A DNA stretch of 64,000 nucleotides from positions 434,001-498,000 of the forward strand of contig NZ_QCXS01000002.1 in assembly GCF_003260015.1 (NCBI RefSeq). The letters are read 5' to 3'. Shown in pieces: positions 16,150-26,160 of the stretch. The DNA comes from Nakamurella deserti (lineage in GTDB: Bacteria > Actinomycetota > Actinomycetes > Mycobacteriales > Nakamurellaceae). Both the position numbers and the translations under genes were made by a program. Numbering within the stretch: the first letter of the stretch is position 1; each line of letters begins with the position of its first letter. The notes beneath the pieces were generated by a model. That model ran no database searches, was not told the DNA's origin, and saw only the letters and a program-made list of their open reading frames with translations.

Positions 16150-16165
16150 TCGAACGCATGTTCGA
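16150..16165. promoter_or_regulatory. LexA (SOS) box over the imuA' start codon
   Basis: TCGAAC-GCAT-GTTCGA is a perfect match to the actinobacterial SOS box TCGAAC-N4-GTTCGA. The ATG of imuA' (16158-16160) lies inside it. The -10-like box TAGCGT (16145-16150) shares its last base with the operator and ends 7 bases before the ATG. LexA bound here would cover both the promoter and the start of the gene, and the message is probably leaderless. Confidence 0.9.
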
Positions 16166-17117
16166 CAACGACTCCGCCGACTTCCCCGATTGGCCGGAGT
16201 TCGAGGGGTCCCCGCCGGTGGGGTCCCGCACCTCCGCGGTGGCCCGGGTGGTGGCGGTGCAGCCCGAGGCGCGGTCGGCGTCCCGGCCGGCGGCGGTCCG
16301 GGCCCCGGCCGACCGCCTGCAGGTCGTCGCCGAGCTGCGCCGCCGGTTGGCCGACACCGCGCCGCCGCCCGCGGCGCCACCGTCCGACCGCGACGCGGTG
16401 CCGGTCCTCGGTGCCGGTGGTCCGGCCGGGCTGGTGGGGAGTGTGGTCGGGCCGTTGCCCGGCGGGGTGGTGCCGATGCTGTCGCCGCTGGACACCCTGC
16501 TGCCGGAGGGTGGGCTCCCGCGCGGGTCGGTGGTCAGCCTGCAGCCGGAGGACGGTGCGACCGGCCTGACCAGTCTGCTGTTCACGCTGCTCGCCGGGCC
16601 GTCGAAACCGTGGTCGGCGCTGGTCGGCTTCGGCGACCTCGGACTGGCGGCCGCCGCCGAGCTGGGGGTCGACCTCACCCGGCTGGTGCTGGTGCCCGAC
16701 CCGGGCGTCGATGTGCTGCAGATCCTGTCGGTGCTCATCGACGGGGTCGACGTGATCGCCGTGTCGGTGCCGAAGGGCCCGATCGGGTCGCCGTCACGGC
16801 AGCGGGTGCTCGCCGGTCGACTGCGGCAGCGCGGCGCGGTGCTGCTCGCGGTGGGGCCGTGGCCGGGGGCCGATCTGTCGCTGACGGTGGCCACGGCGGG
16901 TTGGCGGGGGCTGGGGGCGGGCCACGGCCGGCTGCGCGACCGCGAACTGGTGGTGCGGTTGACCGGTCGGCGCCGGGGCGGTCAGGTGCCCGAGGTGCGG
17001 ATGCTGCTGGCCGGATCCCGGCTGGACGACCGGGTGCTGGTGCAGGCCGCGCCGGTCGCGGCCGAGCGGCGTGCGACGGGCACCGGGACCTATCTGCCGG
17101 TGGCCGACGCGGGGTAG
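16158..17117 (+). CDS. imuA': ImuA' mutasome protein (RecA-fold, degenerate)
   Basis: A 319-residue protein of the ImuA'/RecA-like family that works with ImuB and DnaE2 in SOS mutagenesis. A Pro/Ala-rich N-terminus (1-80) precedes the RecA-type core: LDTLLPEGGLPRGSVVSLQ (about 112-129), then PEDGATGLTS (130-139), which replaces a canonical Walker A loop and has no Lys of the GKT/GKS type. A Walker-B-like LIDGVDVIAVSV and a Gly/Arg-rich tail follow. The start codon sits in a perfect SOS box. It lies 4 kb from imuB-dnaE2, with unrelated genes between. Its last 28 bases overlap the convergent gene. The identity rests on fold-like motifs and SOS context. Confidence 0.85.
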   Translation: MFDNDSADFPDWPEFEGSPPVGSRTSAVARVVAVQPEARSASRPAAVRAPADRLQVVAELRRRLADTAPPPAAPPSDRDAVPVLGAGGPAGLVGSVVGPLPGGVVPMLSPLDTLLPEGGLPRGSVVSLQPEDGATGLTSLLFTLLAGPSKPWSALVGFGDLGLAAAAELGVDLTRLVLVPDPGVDVLQILSVLIDGVDVIAVSVPKGPIGSPSRQRVLAGRLRQRGAVLLAVGPWPGADLSLTVATAGWRGLGAGHGRLRDRELVVRLTGRRRGGQVPEVRMLLAGSRLDDRVLVQAAPVAAERRATGTGTYLPVADAG

Positions 17118-19293: not shown

Positions 19294-19387
19294 GCGGCAC
19301 CGGGCTGGTGGCGATGCCCGGGGTCGCACCGAGCGACCCGGCCGGCCCCGGCCGGGAGACACGGCGTGATGTCGTGCGGTCGCCACC

Positions 19388-19603
19388 GGGTCGTGACATC
19401 CGCCGGACCGGGTCGTGACATCCGCGGACCGGTCGTGACACCCGCGGATCCGGTCGCGACACCCGCGGATCCGGTCGCGACACCCGCAGGACCCGGGTTG
19501 CGACAGCCGCCGGACCTGGTGGTGACACCCGCGGACCGGGTCGTGACATCCGCGGACGGGGTCGTCACAGCCGCCGGACCGGGTCGCGACACCCGCAGGC
19601 ACC
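19388..19603. repeat. Tandem repeat, about ten units of 20-23 bp
   Basis: Units begin near 19388, 19410, 19431, 19452, 19473, 19495, 19518, 19538, 19558 and 19581, with consensus GGTCGTGACACCCGCGGACC. Two neighbouring units (19431-19472) differ at one base only; others vary by insertion of one or two bases. No spacers separate units. It is a minisatellite-like locus likely to vary in copy number. Confidence 0.88.
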
Positions 19604-19717
19604 GCGCTCACCCCCGTGCGCCGGGACGAAGATGCACCGGGCCGAGGTGGTCGGTTCGGGCGGTGATCCTGCCCGGCTGATCGACGGACGGGTCACTGTC
19701 GGACCCCTGCTCTAGAA

Positions 19718-19733
19718 TCGAACTCACGTTCGA
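19718..19733. promoter_or_regulatory. LexA (SOS) box of the HNH-imuB-dnaE2 operon
   Basis: TCGAAC-TCAC-GTTCGA is a perfect SOS box 21 bases before the ATG of the DUF222-HNH gene. A -10-like TAGAAT (19713-19718) shares its last base with the box. The ribosome-binding site GGGAGG lies between the box and the ATG. The next genes overlap, so this operator should control all three. Confidence 0.92.
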
Positions 19734-19754
19734 ACGAGCTGCAGGGAGGTCCGG

Positions 19755-21167
19755 ATGCTCGACCTGAGGCATCACCAGGGTGTCACGGGGTCACCCCCGG
19801 GTCCATCGCCCGATCCGGTTCCCGGCCTGCCGCCGCCACCGGGATCACCCGTCGAAGCCGCGTCGGCACTGGGGAAGGTGCCGGACGGCGAACTGAAGGA
19901 GCAGATCTGCTCCCTGGCGGCCCGGCTCGCCGCGGCCACCCACACCTGGCTGACGATGGTCGCCGAGTTCGACCGACGTTCGGCCTGGTCGGGGACGGGC
20001 ATCACCTCCTGCGCGCACTGGCTGGCGTGGTCCTGCTCGATGTCCCCTGCGACGGCACGGGAGCACGTCCGGGTCGCCCGGGCGCTGACGGCGTTGCCGC
20101 TGGTGTCGGACATGTTCGCGGCCGGCTCCCTGTCCTACTCGAAGGTGCGTGCACTCACCCGCATCGCCGCCGACACCGACGAGCCGACGCTGGTCCGGCT
20201 GGCCCTGGCCGAGTCCGCCTCCCAGCTCGAACGCACCGTGCGCGGGCACCGTCGGGCCACCGGTGCCGGTCTCGCCCAGCAGCGGCGGCGACGGGCCCGG
20301 ATGTACTGGGACGAGAACGGGATGCTGGTGGTGTCCGCCCGGCTGACCGCCGAGGAGGGAGCGGTCCTGATGGCCGCCGTCGCGGCGGCCCGGTCCACGG
20401 CCGACGCCCCGAACTCTCCCGACGACCGGCTCCGTGAGGACCGGGAGGCCGACCGCCTCGACATCGACTACCGCGCACTGTCCACCGCCGACGCCCTCGT
20501 CGTGATGGCCCGCACCGCGTTGCACGCCGAACCGTCCGACGACTCCGGGGAGGACCGCCATCTCGTGGTGCTCCACGTCGACGCCGACCGGCTGCCGACC
20601 CCCGACCCGGCGGCGCCGGAGCCGGCGGCGGTCGTCCGGCGGATCGAGAACGGCCCGGGGGTCGACCGGCCCACCAGCGAACGGATCGGCTGCGACGCGA
20701 TGGTCGCCGCCGTCGTGCAGGACACGGTCACCGGCACGCTGTCGGCCGGCCGTCGCACCCGCAGGATCGGTGCCGCGCTCCGACGGGCCCTGCTGGTCCG
20801 CGACGCCGGATGCCGGTTCCCCGGCTGCCATCGCCGCACCCACCTCGAGGCGCACCACATCGTGCACTGGTACCACGGCGGCCCCACCGACCCCGACAAC
20901 CTGGTGCTGCTGTGCCGGTTCCACCACATGGCGCTACACGAGGCCGGCTTCCGGCTGGTCGTCACCGACACCACCGGCGCCCCGCTGACCCTGCAGTTCA
21001 GCACCCCCGACGGGTCGCCCGTGGCCGCAGCGCCGGCTCTGGACCCGGGCCCCACCACCGACCTCGATCAACACCTCCACCGGCAACTCGACCCGGGTGG
21101 CATCGGTCCCCGTCAGTACGGCGAACGGTTCTCCCTGGCCGACGCCGTGGGGGTGCTCAGCGCATGA
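19755..21167 (+). CDS. DUF222/13E12-type HNH endonuclease-like protein
   Basis: A 470-residue protein. A DUF222 region fills about residues 35-300 (LAAATHTWLTMVAEFDRRSAW, AREHVRVARALTALPLV, SYSKVRALTRIA). A C-terminal HNH nuclease motif follows: paired Cys in CRFPGC near 353-358, EAHHIVHW near 367-374, then NLVLLCRFHHMALHE. All expected Cys/His residues are present, so catalysis is plausible. DUF222-HNH genes are abundant in actinobacteria, and some 13E12 members are LexA-regulated in mycobacteria. Here the gene opens an SOS operon, and its stop overlaps the imuB start (ATGA). Its role in mutagenesis is unknown. Confidence 0.88.
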   Translation: MLDLRHHQGVTGSPPGPSPDPVPGLPPPPGSPVEAASALGKVPDGELKEQICSLAARLAAATHTWLTMVAEFDRRSAWSGTGITSCAHWLAWSCSMSPATAREHVRVARALTALPLVSDMFAAGSLSYSKVRALTRIAADTDEPTLVRLALAESASQLERTVRGHRRATGAGLAQQRRRRARMYWDENGMLVVSARLTAEEGAVLMAAVAAARSTADAPNSPDDRLREDREADRLDIDYRALSTADALVVMARTALHAEPSDDSGEDRHLVVLHVDADRLPTPDPAAPEPAAVVRRIENGPGVDRPTSERIGCDAMVAAVVQDTVTGTLSAGRRTRRIGAALRRALLVRDAGCRFPGCHRRTHLEAHHIVHWYHGGPTDPDNLVLLCRFHHMALHEAGFRLVVTDTTGAPLTLQFSTPDGSPVAAAPALDPGPTTDLDQHLHRQLDPGGIGPRQYGERFSLADAVGVLSA

Positions 21168-22810
21168 CCAGGTCCCTCGTCGTGTGGTGTCCGGACTGGC
21201 CGGTCGTCACCGCACTCAAGGCCGCCGGCCGACCCACCTCCGTGCCGGCCGCGGTCTTCGTCGCCAACCGGGTCACCTCGTCCACGGCCGCCGCCCGGCG
21301 TGAAGGCGTCATCGTCGGGATGCGCCGCCGGGAGGCGCAGTCCCGCTGCCCCGGACTGCTCGTCCTGAAGGCCGATCCCGAGCGTGACGCCCGGGACTTC
21401 GAGCCGATCGCCGCCGTCGTCGAAGAGCTCGCGCCGGGACTGGAGATCCTCCGGCCCGGCCTGCTCGGGTGCCCGGCCCGCGGCCCGGCGCGTTACTTCC
21501 GCAGCGAGGGGCGGGCCGCCGAGACGATCGTCGACGCCGTCGAAGCGCTGGACGTGGAGTGCCGGATCGGCGTCGCCGACTCCCTCGAGGTCGCCGTGCT
21601 GGCGTCCCGGCTGTCGACGATCGTGCCGCCGGGGGAGTCCGCGACCTTCTGCGCCCCGCTGCCCATCGCCATGCTCGCCGCCGAGGCGTCGATGGCCGCC
21701 GACGGGCGGTCCGACACCGTCGACCTCCTGCAGCGGCTCGGCATCACCACCTTCGCCGACTTCGCCGCCCTGCCCGACACCAAGGTGGCGACCCGGTTCG
21801 GCCCCGACGCGGTCGCCGCCCACCGGTTGTCCCGCGGGCTCGGCGAGCGCCCGGTGTCCCGCCGGGAGATCCCCGCCGACCTCACCGTCGAGCAGGTGTG
21901 CGACCCGCCGTTGGACCGGGTCGACACCGCGGCCTTCGCCGCCCGGTCGCTGGCCGAACGGTTCCACCAACGCCTCGCCGACGCGGGACTCGCCTGCACC
22001 CGGCTGATGATCAGCGCCCGCACCGAGCTGGACCGCGACCTGACCCGGACGTGGCGGTGTGCGGCACCCCTCACCCCGGCGGCCACCGCGGACCGGTTGC
22101 GGTGGCAGCTGGACGGCTGGTTGACCGCGTCCCGTACCGGTGCCGACGGCCCCGGTGCGATCACCCTGCTCCGTCTCGAACCCGTCGAGGCGGTGGGGGC
22201 AGGTCTCATCCAGTACGGACTGTGGGGCTCGGAGGGGGAGTCCGACCAACGGGCCGGCTGGGCCCTCGCCCGCATCCAGGGACTGCTCGGCCCGGCCGCC
22301 GTCCTCTCCCCGGCGCCGGCCGGCGGTCGTAGCCCCGATCAACGGATCGCCCTCATCCCGTGGGGGCAGGAGCAGTCCGTTCCCCGGGATCCGACGGCAC
22401 CCTGGCCCGGGCGGCTGCCCGCGCCGTCGCCGACCCGGTTGCTGCGCGCCGCCCAGGGGGTGGTCGCCCTCCGGGACGACCGCGGCCACGACGTCACCCT
22501 CACCGACCGCGGCCGGTTCAGCACCGACCCCCGATGGTGCGTCACCGACGGCGGGCGGACCCGGGTGCTCGGATGGGCCGGGCCGTGGATGCTGGACGAG
22601 CAGTGGTGGGAGCGCCCCGGCGCCGGCCCGGCGCCGGCCACCGACGACCCCGGTGCACTCTTCCCCGTGTCCGCGACCGCCCCCGTGTCCCGGGCCGTGG
22701 ACGTCGCCCCGCCCCGGCGGGCCCGGGTCCAGCTCGAACTCGCCGACGGCGCCCCGGTGCTGCTCGGTTACCTGGCCGGCGGCTGGGCCATCGAAGGGGT
22801 GTACGACTGA
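21164..22810 (+). CDS. imuB: ImuB, Y-family-like mutasome adaptor
   Basis: A 548-residue protein related to Y-family polymerases. The palm/finger region shows VVWCPDWPVVTA, RREGVIVGMRRREAQSRCP and an altered active site: LEILRPGLLGCPARGPARYF lacks the catalytic acidic pair. CRIGVADSLEVAVLASR, a helix-hairpin-helix (LLQRLGITTFADFAALP) and a little-finger region follow. ImuB is known as an inactive polymerase that bridges ImuA', DnaE2 and the beta clamp. No clear clamp-binding peptide was picked out. The ATG overlaps the HNH stop, and the TGA overlaps the dnaE2 ATG by one base. Confidence 0.92.
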   Translation: MTRSLVVWCPDWPVVTALKAAGRPTSVPAAVFVANRVTSSTAAARREGVIVGMRRREAQSRCPGLLVLKADPERDARDFEPIAAVVEELAPGLEILRPGLLGCPARGPARYFRSEGRAAETIVDAVEALDVECRIGVADSLEVAVLASRLSTIVPPGESATFCAPLPIAMLAAEASMAADGRSDTVDLLQRLGITTFADFAALPDTKVATRFGPDAVAAHRLSRGLGERPVSRREIPADLTVEQVCDPPLDRVDTAAFAARSLAERFHQRLADAGLACTRLMISARTELDRDLTRTWRCAAPLTPAATADRLRWQLDGWLTASRTGADGPGAITLLRLEPVEAVGAGLIQYGLWGSEGESDQRAGWALARIQGLLGPAAVLSPAPAGGRSPDQRIALIPWGQEQSVPRDPTAPWPGRLPAPSPTRLLRAAQGVVALRDDRGHDVTLTDRGRFSTDPRWCVTDGGRTRVLGWAGPWMLDEQWWERPGAGPAPATDDPGALFPVSATAPVSRAVDVAPPRRARVQLELADGAPVLLGYLAGGWAIEGVYD

Positions 22811-25800
22811 TGGGCTGGTACAACCCGCCGGTGCCGTGGTCGGAGCTGGAGCGGGCCCTGTCCGGCCGCAAACCGGCACCGGCCGTCGTCCGCGAGCTGC
22901 ACCGCCAGGGACGGCCGCTGGCGAGCCGGGCCGCCGACGCGCCCGAGCCGGTGGAGCCGCCCCCGCCGCCCGGCCCCGAACACGTCCCGTTCGCGGAGCT
23001 GCACTGCCACTCCGCGTTCAGTTTCCTCGACGGCTCGTCCACCCCGGACGAGCTGGTCGCCGAGGCGGTCCGGCTCGGCCTGGACGCACTCGCGGTGACC
23101 GACCACGACGGCTTCTACGGGGTGGTCCGGTTCGCCGAGGCCGCCGCCGACGCCGGGCTGGCCACCATCTACGGCGCCGAGCTGTCGCTGGACCTGCCCG
23201 AGCCGCAGATGGGCATCCCCGACCCGGTCGGCACCCACCTGCTGGTGCTGGCCCGCGGTCAGGAGGGCTACTCGCGGCTGTCCCGGGAGATCACCCACGC
23301 CCAGCTGGCCGGACGCACCAAGGGCCGGCCCGTCTACGACCTCGACCGGCTCGCGGCCGCCGCCGGTGGGCACTGGATCGTGCTCACCGGCTGCCGCAAG
23401 GGAGCCGTCCGGCAGGCGCTGCGCCGGCACGGGCCGGACGCCGCCGGCGCCGCCCTCGACGACCTGGTGCGACGGTTCGGGCCCGGGAACGTCCTGGTCG
23501 AACTGACCTGTCACCAGGTGCCCACCGACGACGAGGACAACGACGTCCTCGCCGCCCTCGCCGACAGCCGCGGCCTGCCGGTGGTGGCGACCACCGGTGC
23601 GCACTACGCCGCTCCCGACGGCGGTCGGCTCGCCGCGGCGATGGCCGCCGTGCGGGCCCGCCGCAGCCTGGCCGACGCCGATCCGTACCTGCCCGCCGGC
23701 CCGGCCGCCCACCTCCGGTCGGGGGCGGAGATGGCGGAGCTGTTCGACCGGTACCCGACCGCGGTGGCCACCGCCGCCCGGATCGGCCGGGAGTGTGCGT
23801 TCGACCTCACCCTGGTCGCCCCGCAGCTGCCCCCGTTCGACGTGCCCGACGGTCACGACGAGAACAGCTGGCTGCGCGAACTCACGCTCCGCGGTGCGGC
23901 CCGCCGCTACGGCGCCCCGGGCGACAACCCCCGCGCCTACGAGCAGATCGAGAAAGAGCTGCGGATCATCTCCGACCTCGACTTCCCCGGTTACTTCCTC
24001 ATCGTCGACGACCTGGTGCGGTTCTGCCGCGACAACGACATCCTCTGCCAGGGGCGGGGTTCCGCGGCGAACTCGGCGGTCTGCTTCGCCCTGGGCATCA
24101 CCGCGGTCGACGCCGTCCGCTACGACCTGCTCTTCGAACGGTTCCTGGCCCCCGAGCGCGACGGCCCCCCGGACATCGACATCGACATCGAGTCCGATCA
24201 GCGGGAGCTGGTCATCCAGTACGTCTACACCAAGTACGGCCGCGACTGCGCCGCCCAGGTCGCCAACGTCAACACCTACCGACCGCGGATGGCGGTGCGC
24301 GACGTGGCCAAGGCGCTGGGCTACTCGCCCGGTCAGCAGGACGCCTACTCCAAGCAGGTCGACGGTTGGGTGCCGCTGAGCCATCAGGAGGAGAAGGGCA
24401 GCGGCGACCCCTCGCAGATCCCGCTGGAGATCATGGAGCTGGCGTTGCAGATCCAGGACCTGCCCCGGCATCTGTCCATCCACTCCGGCGGCATGGTGAT
24501 CTGCGACCGCCCGGTGTCGGAGGTGTGTCCGGTCGAGTGGGCGCGGATGGCCGAGCGGTCGGTCCTGCAGTGGGACAAGGACGACTGCGCCGCCATCGGA
24601 CTGGTCAAGTTCGACCTGCTCGGGCTGGGCATGCTGTCGGCGCTGCACTACGCCGTCGACATGATCGCCGAGCACGAGGATCTCGAGGTCGACTTCGCCT
24701 CCCTGGATCTCGAGGAGGCCGCCGTCTACGAGATGCTGCAGCGGGCCGACTCGGTCGGTGTCTTCCAGGTCGAGTCCCGCGCCCAGATGGCCACCCTGCC
24801 GCGGCTCAAACCCGGCAACTTCTACGACCTCGTCGTCGAGGTGGCGCTGATCCGGCCCGGTCCCATCCAGGGCAACTCCGTGCACCCCTACATCCGGCGC
24901 CGCAACCAGCAGGAACCGATCGCCTACGACCATCCGGTGATGATCCCGGCGCTGCGCAAGACGCTCGGCATCCCGGTGTTCCAGGAGCAGCTGATGCAGC
25001 TGGCCATCGACGTCGCCGGGTTCGACGCGGGGGAGGCCGACCAGCTCCGCCGGGCGATGGGTTCCAAGCGGTCCACCGCCAAGATGCAACGGATGCGGGC
25101 CCGGCTCTACGACGGCATGCGCGATCTGCACGGCATCGACGGTGAGGTCGCCGACCGGATCTTCGAGCGGCTGCTGGCGTTCGCCAACTTCGGCTTCGCC
25201 GAGTCGCACGCCCTGTCGTTCGCCGCGCTGGTCTTCTACTCGTCCTGGCTCAAGCTGCACCATCCCGCAGCGTTCTGCGCCGCGCTGCTGCGGGCCCAGC
25301 CGATGGGTTTCTACTCGCCGCAGTCGCTCGTCGCCGACGCCCGCCGGCACGGCGTCACCGTGCACCGCCCGGACGTCAACTTCTCCCGCGCCCAGTCCGA
25401 CCTGGAACGCGTCCCGGGCGCCGGCCCGGCGGTCCGGCTGGGACTCGATCAGGTCCGGGGCATCGGCACCGAGCTCGCCGAGGAGATCGTCGCCGCCCGG
25501 GACGCCCGTCCCGAGGGCCGGTTCGCCTCCCTGGACCAGTTGACCCGCGCGGTCACCATGACCAGCGCCCACGCCGAGGCCCTGGCCACCGCCGGTGCGC
25601 TGGACAGCCTGACCACCGCCGATCCCGGGGCCGCCGGCCGGGTCGACCGACGGGCCGCCCTGTGGGGGGCCGGTGCCGCCGCCGGCAACCGGGCCGGCAC
25701 CCTCCCCGACAGCCTGGTCGGGATGGACGCCCCAGCACTGCCCGGGATGAGCGAGATCGAGCTGACCGTCGCCGACATCTGGGCCACCGGCATCTCACCC

Positions 25801-26160
25801 GACAGCTACCCGACGGAGTTCTCCCGGGAACAGCTCGACCGCTACGGCGCTCTGACGGCCGCCCAGTTGATGCCCGTCCCGCACGGCACCCGGGTGCTCG
25901 TGGCCGGCATGGTCACCCACCGCCAACGGCCGGCGACGGCGTCCGGGGTCATCTTCATCAACCTGGAGGACGAGAGCGGGATGCTCAACGTCATCTGCTC
26001 GGTCGGACTGTGGAAGCGGTACCGCACCGTCGCCCGCGGCGCCGGGGCGCTGCTCGTCCGGGGCGTCGTGGAGCGCGACGGCGGCGCGATCTCCATCGTC
26101 GCCGACCGGATCGCCGCCCTGCAACTGCCCGCGCACACGCCTTCGCGGGACTTCCGGTGA
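22810..26160 (+). CDS. dnaE2: Error-prone DNA polymerase III alpha subunit DnaE2
   Basis: A 1116-residue family-C polymerase, shorter than DnaE1, and the catalytic member of the mutasome. The PHP domain starts at about residue 60 (FAELHCHSAFSFLDGSS) after a short basic N-terminus. The polymerase core contains QGRGSAANSAVCFALG and the catalytic PPDIDIDIESDQRE (about 454-467). DnaE2-type features include VEVALIRPGPIQGNSVHPYI and the OB-fold ending GMLNVICSVGLWKRY. The start is the ATG in the TGATG junction with imuB, giving MGWYNPPVPWSELER, a typical DnaE2 N-terminus. It should be damage-inducible through the upstream SOS box. Confidence 0.95.
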   Translation: MGWYNPPVPWSELERALSGRKPAPAVVRELHRQGRPLASRAADAPEPVEPPPPPGPEHVPFAELHCHSAFSFLDGSSTPDELVAEAVRLGLDALAVTDHDGFYGVVRFAEAAADAGLATIYGAELSLDLPEPQMGIPDPVGTHLLVLARGQEGYSRLSREITHAQLAGRTKGRPVYDLDRLAAAAGGHWIVLTGCRKGAVRQALRRHGPDAAGAALDDLVRRFGPGNVLVELTCHQVPTDDEDNDVLAALADSRGLPVVATTGAHYAAPDGGRLAAAMAAVRARRSLADADPYLPAGPAAHLRSGAEMAELFDRYPTAVATAARIGRECAFDLTLVAPQLPPFDVPDGHDENSWLRELTLRGAARRYGAPGDNPRAYEQIEKELRIISDLDFPGYFLIVDDLVRFCRDNDILCQGRGSAANSAVCFALGITAVDAVRYDLLFERFLAPERDGPPDIDIDIESDQRELVIQYVYTKYGRDCAAQVANVNTYRPRMAVRDVAKALGYSPGQQDAYSKQVDGWVPLSHQEEKGSGDPSQIPLEIMELALQIQDLPRHLSIHSGGMVICDRPVSEVCPVEWARMAERSVLQWDKDDCAAIGLVKFDLLGLGMLSALHYAVDMIAEHEDLEVDFASLDLEEAAVYEMLQRADSVGVFQVESRAQMATLPRLKPGNFYDLVVEVALIRPGPIQGNSVHPYIRRRNQQEPIAYDHPVMIPALRKTLGIPVFQEQLMQLAIDVAGFDAGEADQLRRAMGSKRSTAKMQRMRARLYDGMRDLHGIDGEVADRIFERLLAFANFGFAESHALSFAALVFYSSWLKLHHPAAFCAALLRAQPMGFYSPQSLVADARRHGVTVHRPDVNFSRAQSDLERVPGAGPAVRLGLDQVRGIGTELAEEIVAARDARPEGRFASLDQLTRAVTMTSAHAEALATAGALDSLTTADPGAAGRVDRRAALWGAGAAAGNRAGTLPDSLVGMDAPALPGMSEIELTVADIWATGISPDSYPTEFSREQLDRYGALTAAQLMPVPHGTRVLVAGMVTHRQRPATASGVIFINLEDESGMLNVICSVGLWKRYRTVARGAGALLVRGVVERDGGAISIVADRIAALQLPAHTPSRDFR

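Follow-up and report, generated by a model that had tools for sequence, protein, structure and literature searches.

The window analysed here is a stretch of 64,000 nucleotides of Nakamurella deserti (G000:C2:434001-498000, from a genome of 4.63 Mb labelled G000), in which a gene of the DUF222-HNH family stands directly before imuB and dnaE2, behind a putative double damage promoter. The features of this presumed operon are the following.

19697..19718, plus strand: promoter of the RecA-NDp (RecA-independent damage promoter) or PafBC type, TGTCGGAC-N8-TAGAAT, whose final T doubles as the opening base of the SOS box
19718..19733, plus strand: perfect SOS (LexA) box TCGAACTCACGTTCGA, in the start region of the HNH gene
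19743..19749, plus strand: AGGGAGG, resembling a ribosome binding site, between the SOS box and the HNH ATG
19755..21167, plus strand: DUF222-HNH gene, 470 amino acids with intact HNH motif (PF02720 and PF01844)
20007..20189, plus strand: DUF222 part (residues ~85-145) with a possible resemblance to the ParB/Noc helix-turn-helix (Foldseek and profile search, both weak)
20811..20939, plus strand: HNH motif CRFPGC ... AHH ... N ... LCRFHH ... H (sequence, Pfam and conservation)
21164..22810, plus strand: imuB, its start overlapping the HNH stop (ATGA); PF00817
22810..26160, plus strand: dnaE2, its start overlapping the imuB stop (TGATG); NF004225

It had been claimed in a sequence-only reading of this DNA that the three genes form a LexA-boxed unit of overlapping frames. 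The SOS box (TCGAAC-TCAC-GTTCGA, 19718-19733) lies exactly 21 nt 5' of the ATG at 19755 as described, and the overlaps of HNH with imuB (GCGCATGACC) and of imuB with dnaE2 (GACTGATGGG) agree to the base. The names given to the genes are also confirmed. The first protein contains DUF222 (PF02720, E 7e-14) followed by HNH (PF01844, E 7e-8), both over cut-off. ImuB carries the IMS/Y-family domain (PF00817, E 3e-9, 37 bits against a cut-off of 23), and DnaE2 matches the error-prone polymerase model NF004225 with 1507 bits (cut-off 939). The whole genome contains five perfect SOS boxes and none when the pattern is read backwards, and two of the five fall in this region, before HNH and at imuA'. Thus, the SOS boxes of the region exceed chance. 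As a description of the locus that reading was incomplete, as it mentioned neither a separate SOS-boxed imuA' nor the PafBC-type promoter which adjoins the SOS box.

The consensus of RecA-NDp is given in the excerpted text of PMC5656591 as tTGTCRgtg-8nt-TannnT. The sequence TGTCGGAC-N8-TAGAAT fits it and departs only at the lower-case letters t and gtg. It is through this promoter that PafBC works, as stated in excerpts of PMC6789036 and PMC8223512. The host encodes LexA (TIGR00498) and has two WYL genes on the same strand about 1 kb apart, neither of which has an NCBIfam name; the pair could be pafBC, its arrangement being that expected of pafB-pafC. Across 189 kb of imuB loci from the 16 other Nakamurella genomes, read on both strands, there are 15 occurrences of the exact RecA-NDp pattern, and eight of these lie 21-32 nt 5' of a perfect SOS box of HNH or imuB. 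When the window is included, the pair of RecA-NDp and SOS box is found at HNH or imuB in 10 of the 17 genomes (in G011 the box is near-perfect), before HNH in two (G000, G007) and before imuB in eight. The sequence-only reading had also suggested that a selfish HNH gene captured the promoter of the operon. This is half right, since the pair fronts imuB in eight of the 13 HNH-less species, but promoters of this type are also common in front of DUF222 genes elsewhere. Because it occurs in both settings, it cannot be told whether HNH or imuB was the donor. In four HNH-less loci (L043, L047, L042, L050) a short open frame and a stretch similar to GGAGG or GGGAGG occur in the spacer of 150-180 bases between box and imuB; they may represent a leader peptide or an extended start of ImuB.

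The 13E12 proteins are presumably the same as DUF222, and we know of no function for DUF222 genes. DUF222 is widespread: a match is present in 48 of the 61 genomes sampled from the order and in 32 of the 80 sampled from the phylum. The window genome has four matches; genomes of the genus have 2-20, and two genomes of the order have at least 31. In the 600 nt upstream of DUF222 genes we looked for exact matches to the RecA-NDp pattern and for an SOS box with at most one mismatch. For the genus, the first 60 genes in list order whose profile match starts before position 40 were taken, with the four imuB-linked copies omitted. RecA-NDp was found upstream of 19 of the 60, as compared to 2 in antisense, 0 backwards and a mean of 0.2 (maximum 2 in 300) in a first-order Markov control. 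An SOS box was present in 7 of 60, the Markov control here covering the promoter pattern only, and either signal in 26 of 60. For the order outside the genus and for the phylum, one gene per genome was used, namely the best-scoring among the matches listed and not a random draw. The order set showed RecA-NDp in 14 of 25 (Markov mean 0.11, antisense 0), an SOS box in 8 of 25 (Markov mean 0.05) and either signal in 19 of 25; it includes two identical proteins (L271, L272). In one locus of the order and phylum sets (L298) the gene is too near a contig end for proper placement of the scan. Similar enrichment was observed in the phylum set, with RecA-NDp in 10 of 26 (Markov mean 0.08, antisense 2), an SOS box in 12 of 26 (Markov mean 0.07) and either signal in 18 of 26. 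Another DUF222 gene of the window genome (L004) has a perfect SOS box at 2417-2432 which encloses its ATG (MFD). These damage switches, frequent at relatives across the phylum, suggest a role of the DUF222 family in the response to DNA damage.

The two signals are in many cases fused. A search of 298 genomes of the order for the pattern TGTCRN11TAN{3,6}CGAACN4GTTCG gave 114 sites in 66 of them, and none in the backwards control. Twenty sites are from the genus, nine of them being the HNH/imuB promoter. Among the 30 sites that were read, one per genome out of the 114 and none from the genus (L404-L433), 24 belong to genes of the DUF222 family, as judged by a profile of the 50 members used for the tree described below; the others are imuA'-imuB (2), ruvC (2), lexA (1) and a HEPN_SAV_6107-like gene (1). 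It is therefore likely that the window HNH gene belongs to a damage-response family and is not an oddity. An HNH-like motif is present in 16 of the 24. The LexA box of 23 of the 24 contains an in-frame start codon (ATGTTCG, GTGTTCG or ATGNGTTCG), frames being read from the first possible start, so that real starts may differ. The same layout is seen at imuA' of the window; the window HNH gene differs, with a short leader and AGGGAGG. The refined LexA motif in the excerpted text of PMC4181829 ends WTGTTCGA, and this ending may partly reflect start codons in boxes. At one fused locus (L413) lexA has tandem SOS boxes and a RecA-NDp motif, with a divergent gene alongside.

The sharing of this promoter by DUF222 genes, imuA'-imuB and ruvC recalls a proposal made for the tubercle bacillus in the excerpted text of PMC4181829, after which the HNH proteins of the family would nick near mismatches for DnaE2/ImuB and RuvC, in the manner of mismatch repair. 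It is only the promoters that are shared, and Pfam detects no mismatch-recognition domain in the HNH protein, which has DUF222 and HNH only. We regard such a role as very improbable.

The protein itself was expected, from the sequence-only reading, to have intact Cys/His motifs. This holds: the cysteine pair, HH, N and C..HH...H are conserved in the window protein and in its three linked homologues. A structure model of the protein has a mean predicted local distance difference test (pLDDT) of 47 and is confident only at residues ~30-168. The top two Foldseek hits of this model are ParB (7bnr) and Noc (7ng0), with a probability of 0.99, E ~0.1 and a template modelling (TM) score to the target of 0.35. 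A profile of 17 DUF222 N-termini searched against PDB sequences retrieved ParB/Spo0J chains at E 0.025-0.047, with BGL18 (E 0.017) and pD5-14 (E 0.031) among the entries retrieved. Over this stretch Pfam gives DUF222 alone, and a single-sequence search for relatives of solved structure gave none. An HNH protein under a damage-type promoter could also serve defence or self-destruction, cutting invading or own DNA on phage attack or heavy damage, and the HNH domain distantly resembles IscB and a phosphorothioate-DNA restriction enzyme, with scores far below the respective cut-offs. A PADLOC search at E up to 0.01 gave no match for the HNH protein, and the linkage to the mutasome, together with a promoter type common to ruvC and lexA, indicates repair, making defence an unlikely role. 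The mad2 match of this search falls on the adjacent methyltransferase, in its methyltransferase stretch only.

The sequence-only reading had called for a survey of whether DUF222-HNH directly precedes imuB in other genomes. ImuB was found in 50 of 61 genomes searched. Within Nakamurella the pairing recurs, in four of 17 genomes (G000, G002, G007, G010), and it is confined to the genus in this survey. The frames of HNH and imuB overlap in all four; the overlap is 1 nt in G007 and 4 nt in the other three, with start codons assigned by a script that took the one closest to where homology places the start. G002 has the order SOS-imuA'-HNH-imuB-dnaE2. In a tree of 50 DUF222 proteins the linked HNHs form one clade (support 80/84, 76% of bootstraps), which adjoins unlinked copies in G015 and G006; the unlinked copy of G015 retains the RecA-NDp motif and an SOS box with two mismatches. 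The inner order of the clade, (G000,G007),(G002,G010), is not in conflict with the ImuB-DnaE2 tree, on which the four linked genomes require at least three changes. A further close unlinked relative, L095 (G005:C16, ~229461-231004), has a RecA-NDp motif upstream; it was omitted from the HNH tree because its match falls in two frames that were printed apart and not joined, and for the same reason the gene looks broken.

This patchy picture could also be that of a passenger. A passenger or selfish copy from a multi-copy family would have landed between the imuB promoter and imuB; it would be expressed on damage through its position there and have no part in mutagenesis, and its own spread would be the purpose of the damage promoters found in the family. 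The four of 17 genomes, the repeated changes on the ImuB-DnaE2 tree, the high copy number in the genus and the order and the close unlinked copies in G015 and G006 are all as such an account would have it. Set against this, the stop/start overlap is kept in all four linked genomes, the HNH residues and the frame are intact at ~50% identity, and the linked copies are one clade of compatible inner order. With the window protein as query, a detectable relative was found in only one of 72,556 plasmid and one of 50,697 phage records, though distant members would escape such a search. A passenger is thus a possible but somewhat doubtful explanation. A scar was also looked for in the 13 HNH-less species, whose box-to-imuB spacers were set against the four linked HNHs. 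Four spacers were too short to score and two genomes had no box within 260 nt; none of the seven scored exceeded its 40 letter shuffles.

The remaining part of the mutasome lies further upstream and was overlooked together with its SOS box in the sequence-only reading.

16150..16165, plus strand: perfect SOS box TCGAACGCATGTTCGA of imuA', enclosing the imuA' ATG
16158..17117, plus strand: imuA' (DnaE2-dependent mutagenesis accessory factor; NF058630, 157 bits against a cut-off of 65)

It follows from this box, 3.6 kb upstream, that the mutasome is divided over two LexA-boxed units; imuA' and imuB, ~4 kb apart with two genes between them and separate SOS boxes, are not one operon. The interval from imuA' to the HNH operon is occupied by a minus-strand nucleoside deoxyribosyltransferase gene and the methyltransferase gene. 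The usual order outside the genus is imuA'-imuB, often with an SOS box before imuA', and with dnaE2 next or not. It was also observed that imuA' is directly 3' of hisH, with 2 bases from the hisH stop to the SOS box, and that a tandem array of about 10 units of 21 bases (ACCGGGTCGTGACACCCGCGG) occupies 19385-19604 of the window, ~90 bases 5' of the HNH promoter. Two other perfect SOS boxes of the genome (L007 1501-1516, L008 1501-1516) have no obvious SOS or damage gene alongside, open frames only. One Nakamurella genome has a second dnaE2 with its own perfect SOS box (L394, G011:C13:251792-252839).

The surroundings of dnaE2 were also surveyed. It is present in 109 of 150 genomes, and 89 of 92 loci outside the genus were examined, four being clipped by contig ends. 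DUF222-HNH is directly 5' of dnaE2 in two of them. In L076 (G045) the order is imuB, a box with one mismatch, DUF222-HNH, 41 nt and dnaE2, the HNH being barely at cut-off; the other case is L354 (G206). Two cases compare with ~0.1 expected by a rough estimate from copy number (Poisson P(>=2) ~0.005), for a target picked post hoc. In a metagenome-assembled genome of Pseudonocardiaceae (L149) an SOS box with a GTG within it is followed by a DUF222 protein, 10 nt and dnaE2, and in L066 (G033) the order is HNH, SOS box, imuA'.

Our data are best explained, with a probability of roughly 0.55, by a damage operon which has a two-input switch and includes a DNA-binding, DNA-cutting HNH protein that is not needed by the mutasome as such. 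PafBC would activate the RecA-NDp promoter, whose -10 element abuts the LexA box. LexA would cover the -10 and start region until RecA triggers its cleavage; these roles of promoter and box are deduced from the known regulators, which are presumed to bind here. Upon damage HNH, ImuB and DnaE2 would be made together, presumably from one transcript. DNA binding by the HNH protein would reside in a ParB/Noc-like helix-turn-helix of its DUF222 part, and its HNH domain would nick or cut DNA in the damage response, the protein being made in step with the mutasome polymerase.

A number of observations weigh against this reading. HNH is not before imuB in 13 of the 17 Nakamurella genomes, nor in any of 109 loci outside the genus (33 + 76 named loci, among which a species may be represented more than once; in L075 and L146 DUF222 genes lie 2-3 kb away from imuB and were scored as non-adjacent), from which it follows that the mutasome manages without HNH. 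The dnaE2 pairing is likewise rare at 2/89, an SOS box intervenes between HNH and dnaE2 in L354, and the DUF222 protein of L149 has a divergent HNH end with no Pfam HNH match. Among the linked genomes the HNH gene of G002 has the RecA-NDp motif and no SOS box of its own, and that of G010 has the SOS box and no exact RecA-NDp motif. In the genus 34 of the 60 DUF222 upstreams have neither signal, the exact fused promoter is absent from 232 of the 298 genomes of the order, and the fused loci read are a sample without genus sites. Eight of the 24 fused-promoter DUF222 genes have no HNH motif by pattern; four are short or cut (49, 48, 109 and 102 codons), too short to judge, and four are longer and do not match. 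Foldseek gave no match of the model at E 0.001, so that the ParB-like resemblance of DUF222 is weak, two lines that agree below significance. The text of a paper describing the LexA regulon of Streptomyces venezuelae mentions neither an HNH nor a DUF222 gene.

It could be possible, as a wider and more tentative idea, that DUF222-HNH proteins, of which many actinobacteria have several copies, are unrecognised damage-response effectors, namely nucleases with ParB-like DNA binding that are expressed from fused PafBC-LexA promoters, often on leaderless messages whose start codon is in the operator, one of them being a standing partner of ImuB-DnaE2 that prepares DNA for error-prone synthesis in some Nakamurella. 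With DUF222 genes under two damage regulators, and one overlapping the genes of a mutagenic polymerase, it becomes directly testable whether error-prone synthesis is fed or limited by a nuclease produced upon damage. A fused promoter whose operator contains a start codon would in turn be a simple genome marker for members of the family and for the dual regulon.

In the excerpted texts of PMC5005354 and PMC4181829, 13E12 members belong to the LexA regulon of the tubercle bacillus, and the latter proposes a joint action of the 13E12 HNH proteins with DnaE2 and ImuA/B. Thus, neither LexA control nor the idea of a link is new. Five putative HNH endonucleases are induced RecA-dependently in the same organism and are not stated to be DUF222 in the excerpts of PMC8151990. 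A search of open-licence papers did not find DUF222-HNH in one operon with imuB, nor, in the portions of text covered, a PafBC promoter as the usual promoter of the DUF222 family. The gene of the window resembles the 13E12/DUF222-HNH family of the tubercle bacillus in having DUF222 and HNH, several copies and an SOS box; unlike there, its promoter is shared and its frame overlapped with imuB. DUF222 has the likeness, weak in Foldseek and in the profile search, to the DNA-binding domain of ParB, Noc and Spo0J, whereas the C-terminal end of the window protein is an HNH nuclease domain. Several genes of the PafBC regulon carry both the RecA-NDp motif and an SOS box (excerpted text of PMC8223512). 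The promoter described here has the two together like other dual PafBC/LexA promoters, for example that of recA, but they are fused, with the -10 abutting the LexA box. Finally, imuA', imuB and dnaE2 of the actinobacterial ImuA'-ImuB-DnaE2 mutasome are all present, with a perfect SOS box for each unit; the difference is that imuA' is detached and a DUF222-HNH gene heads imuB-dnaE2.

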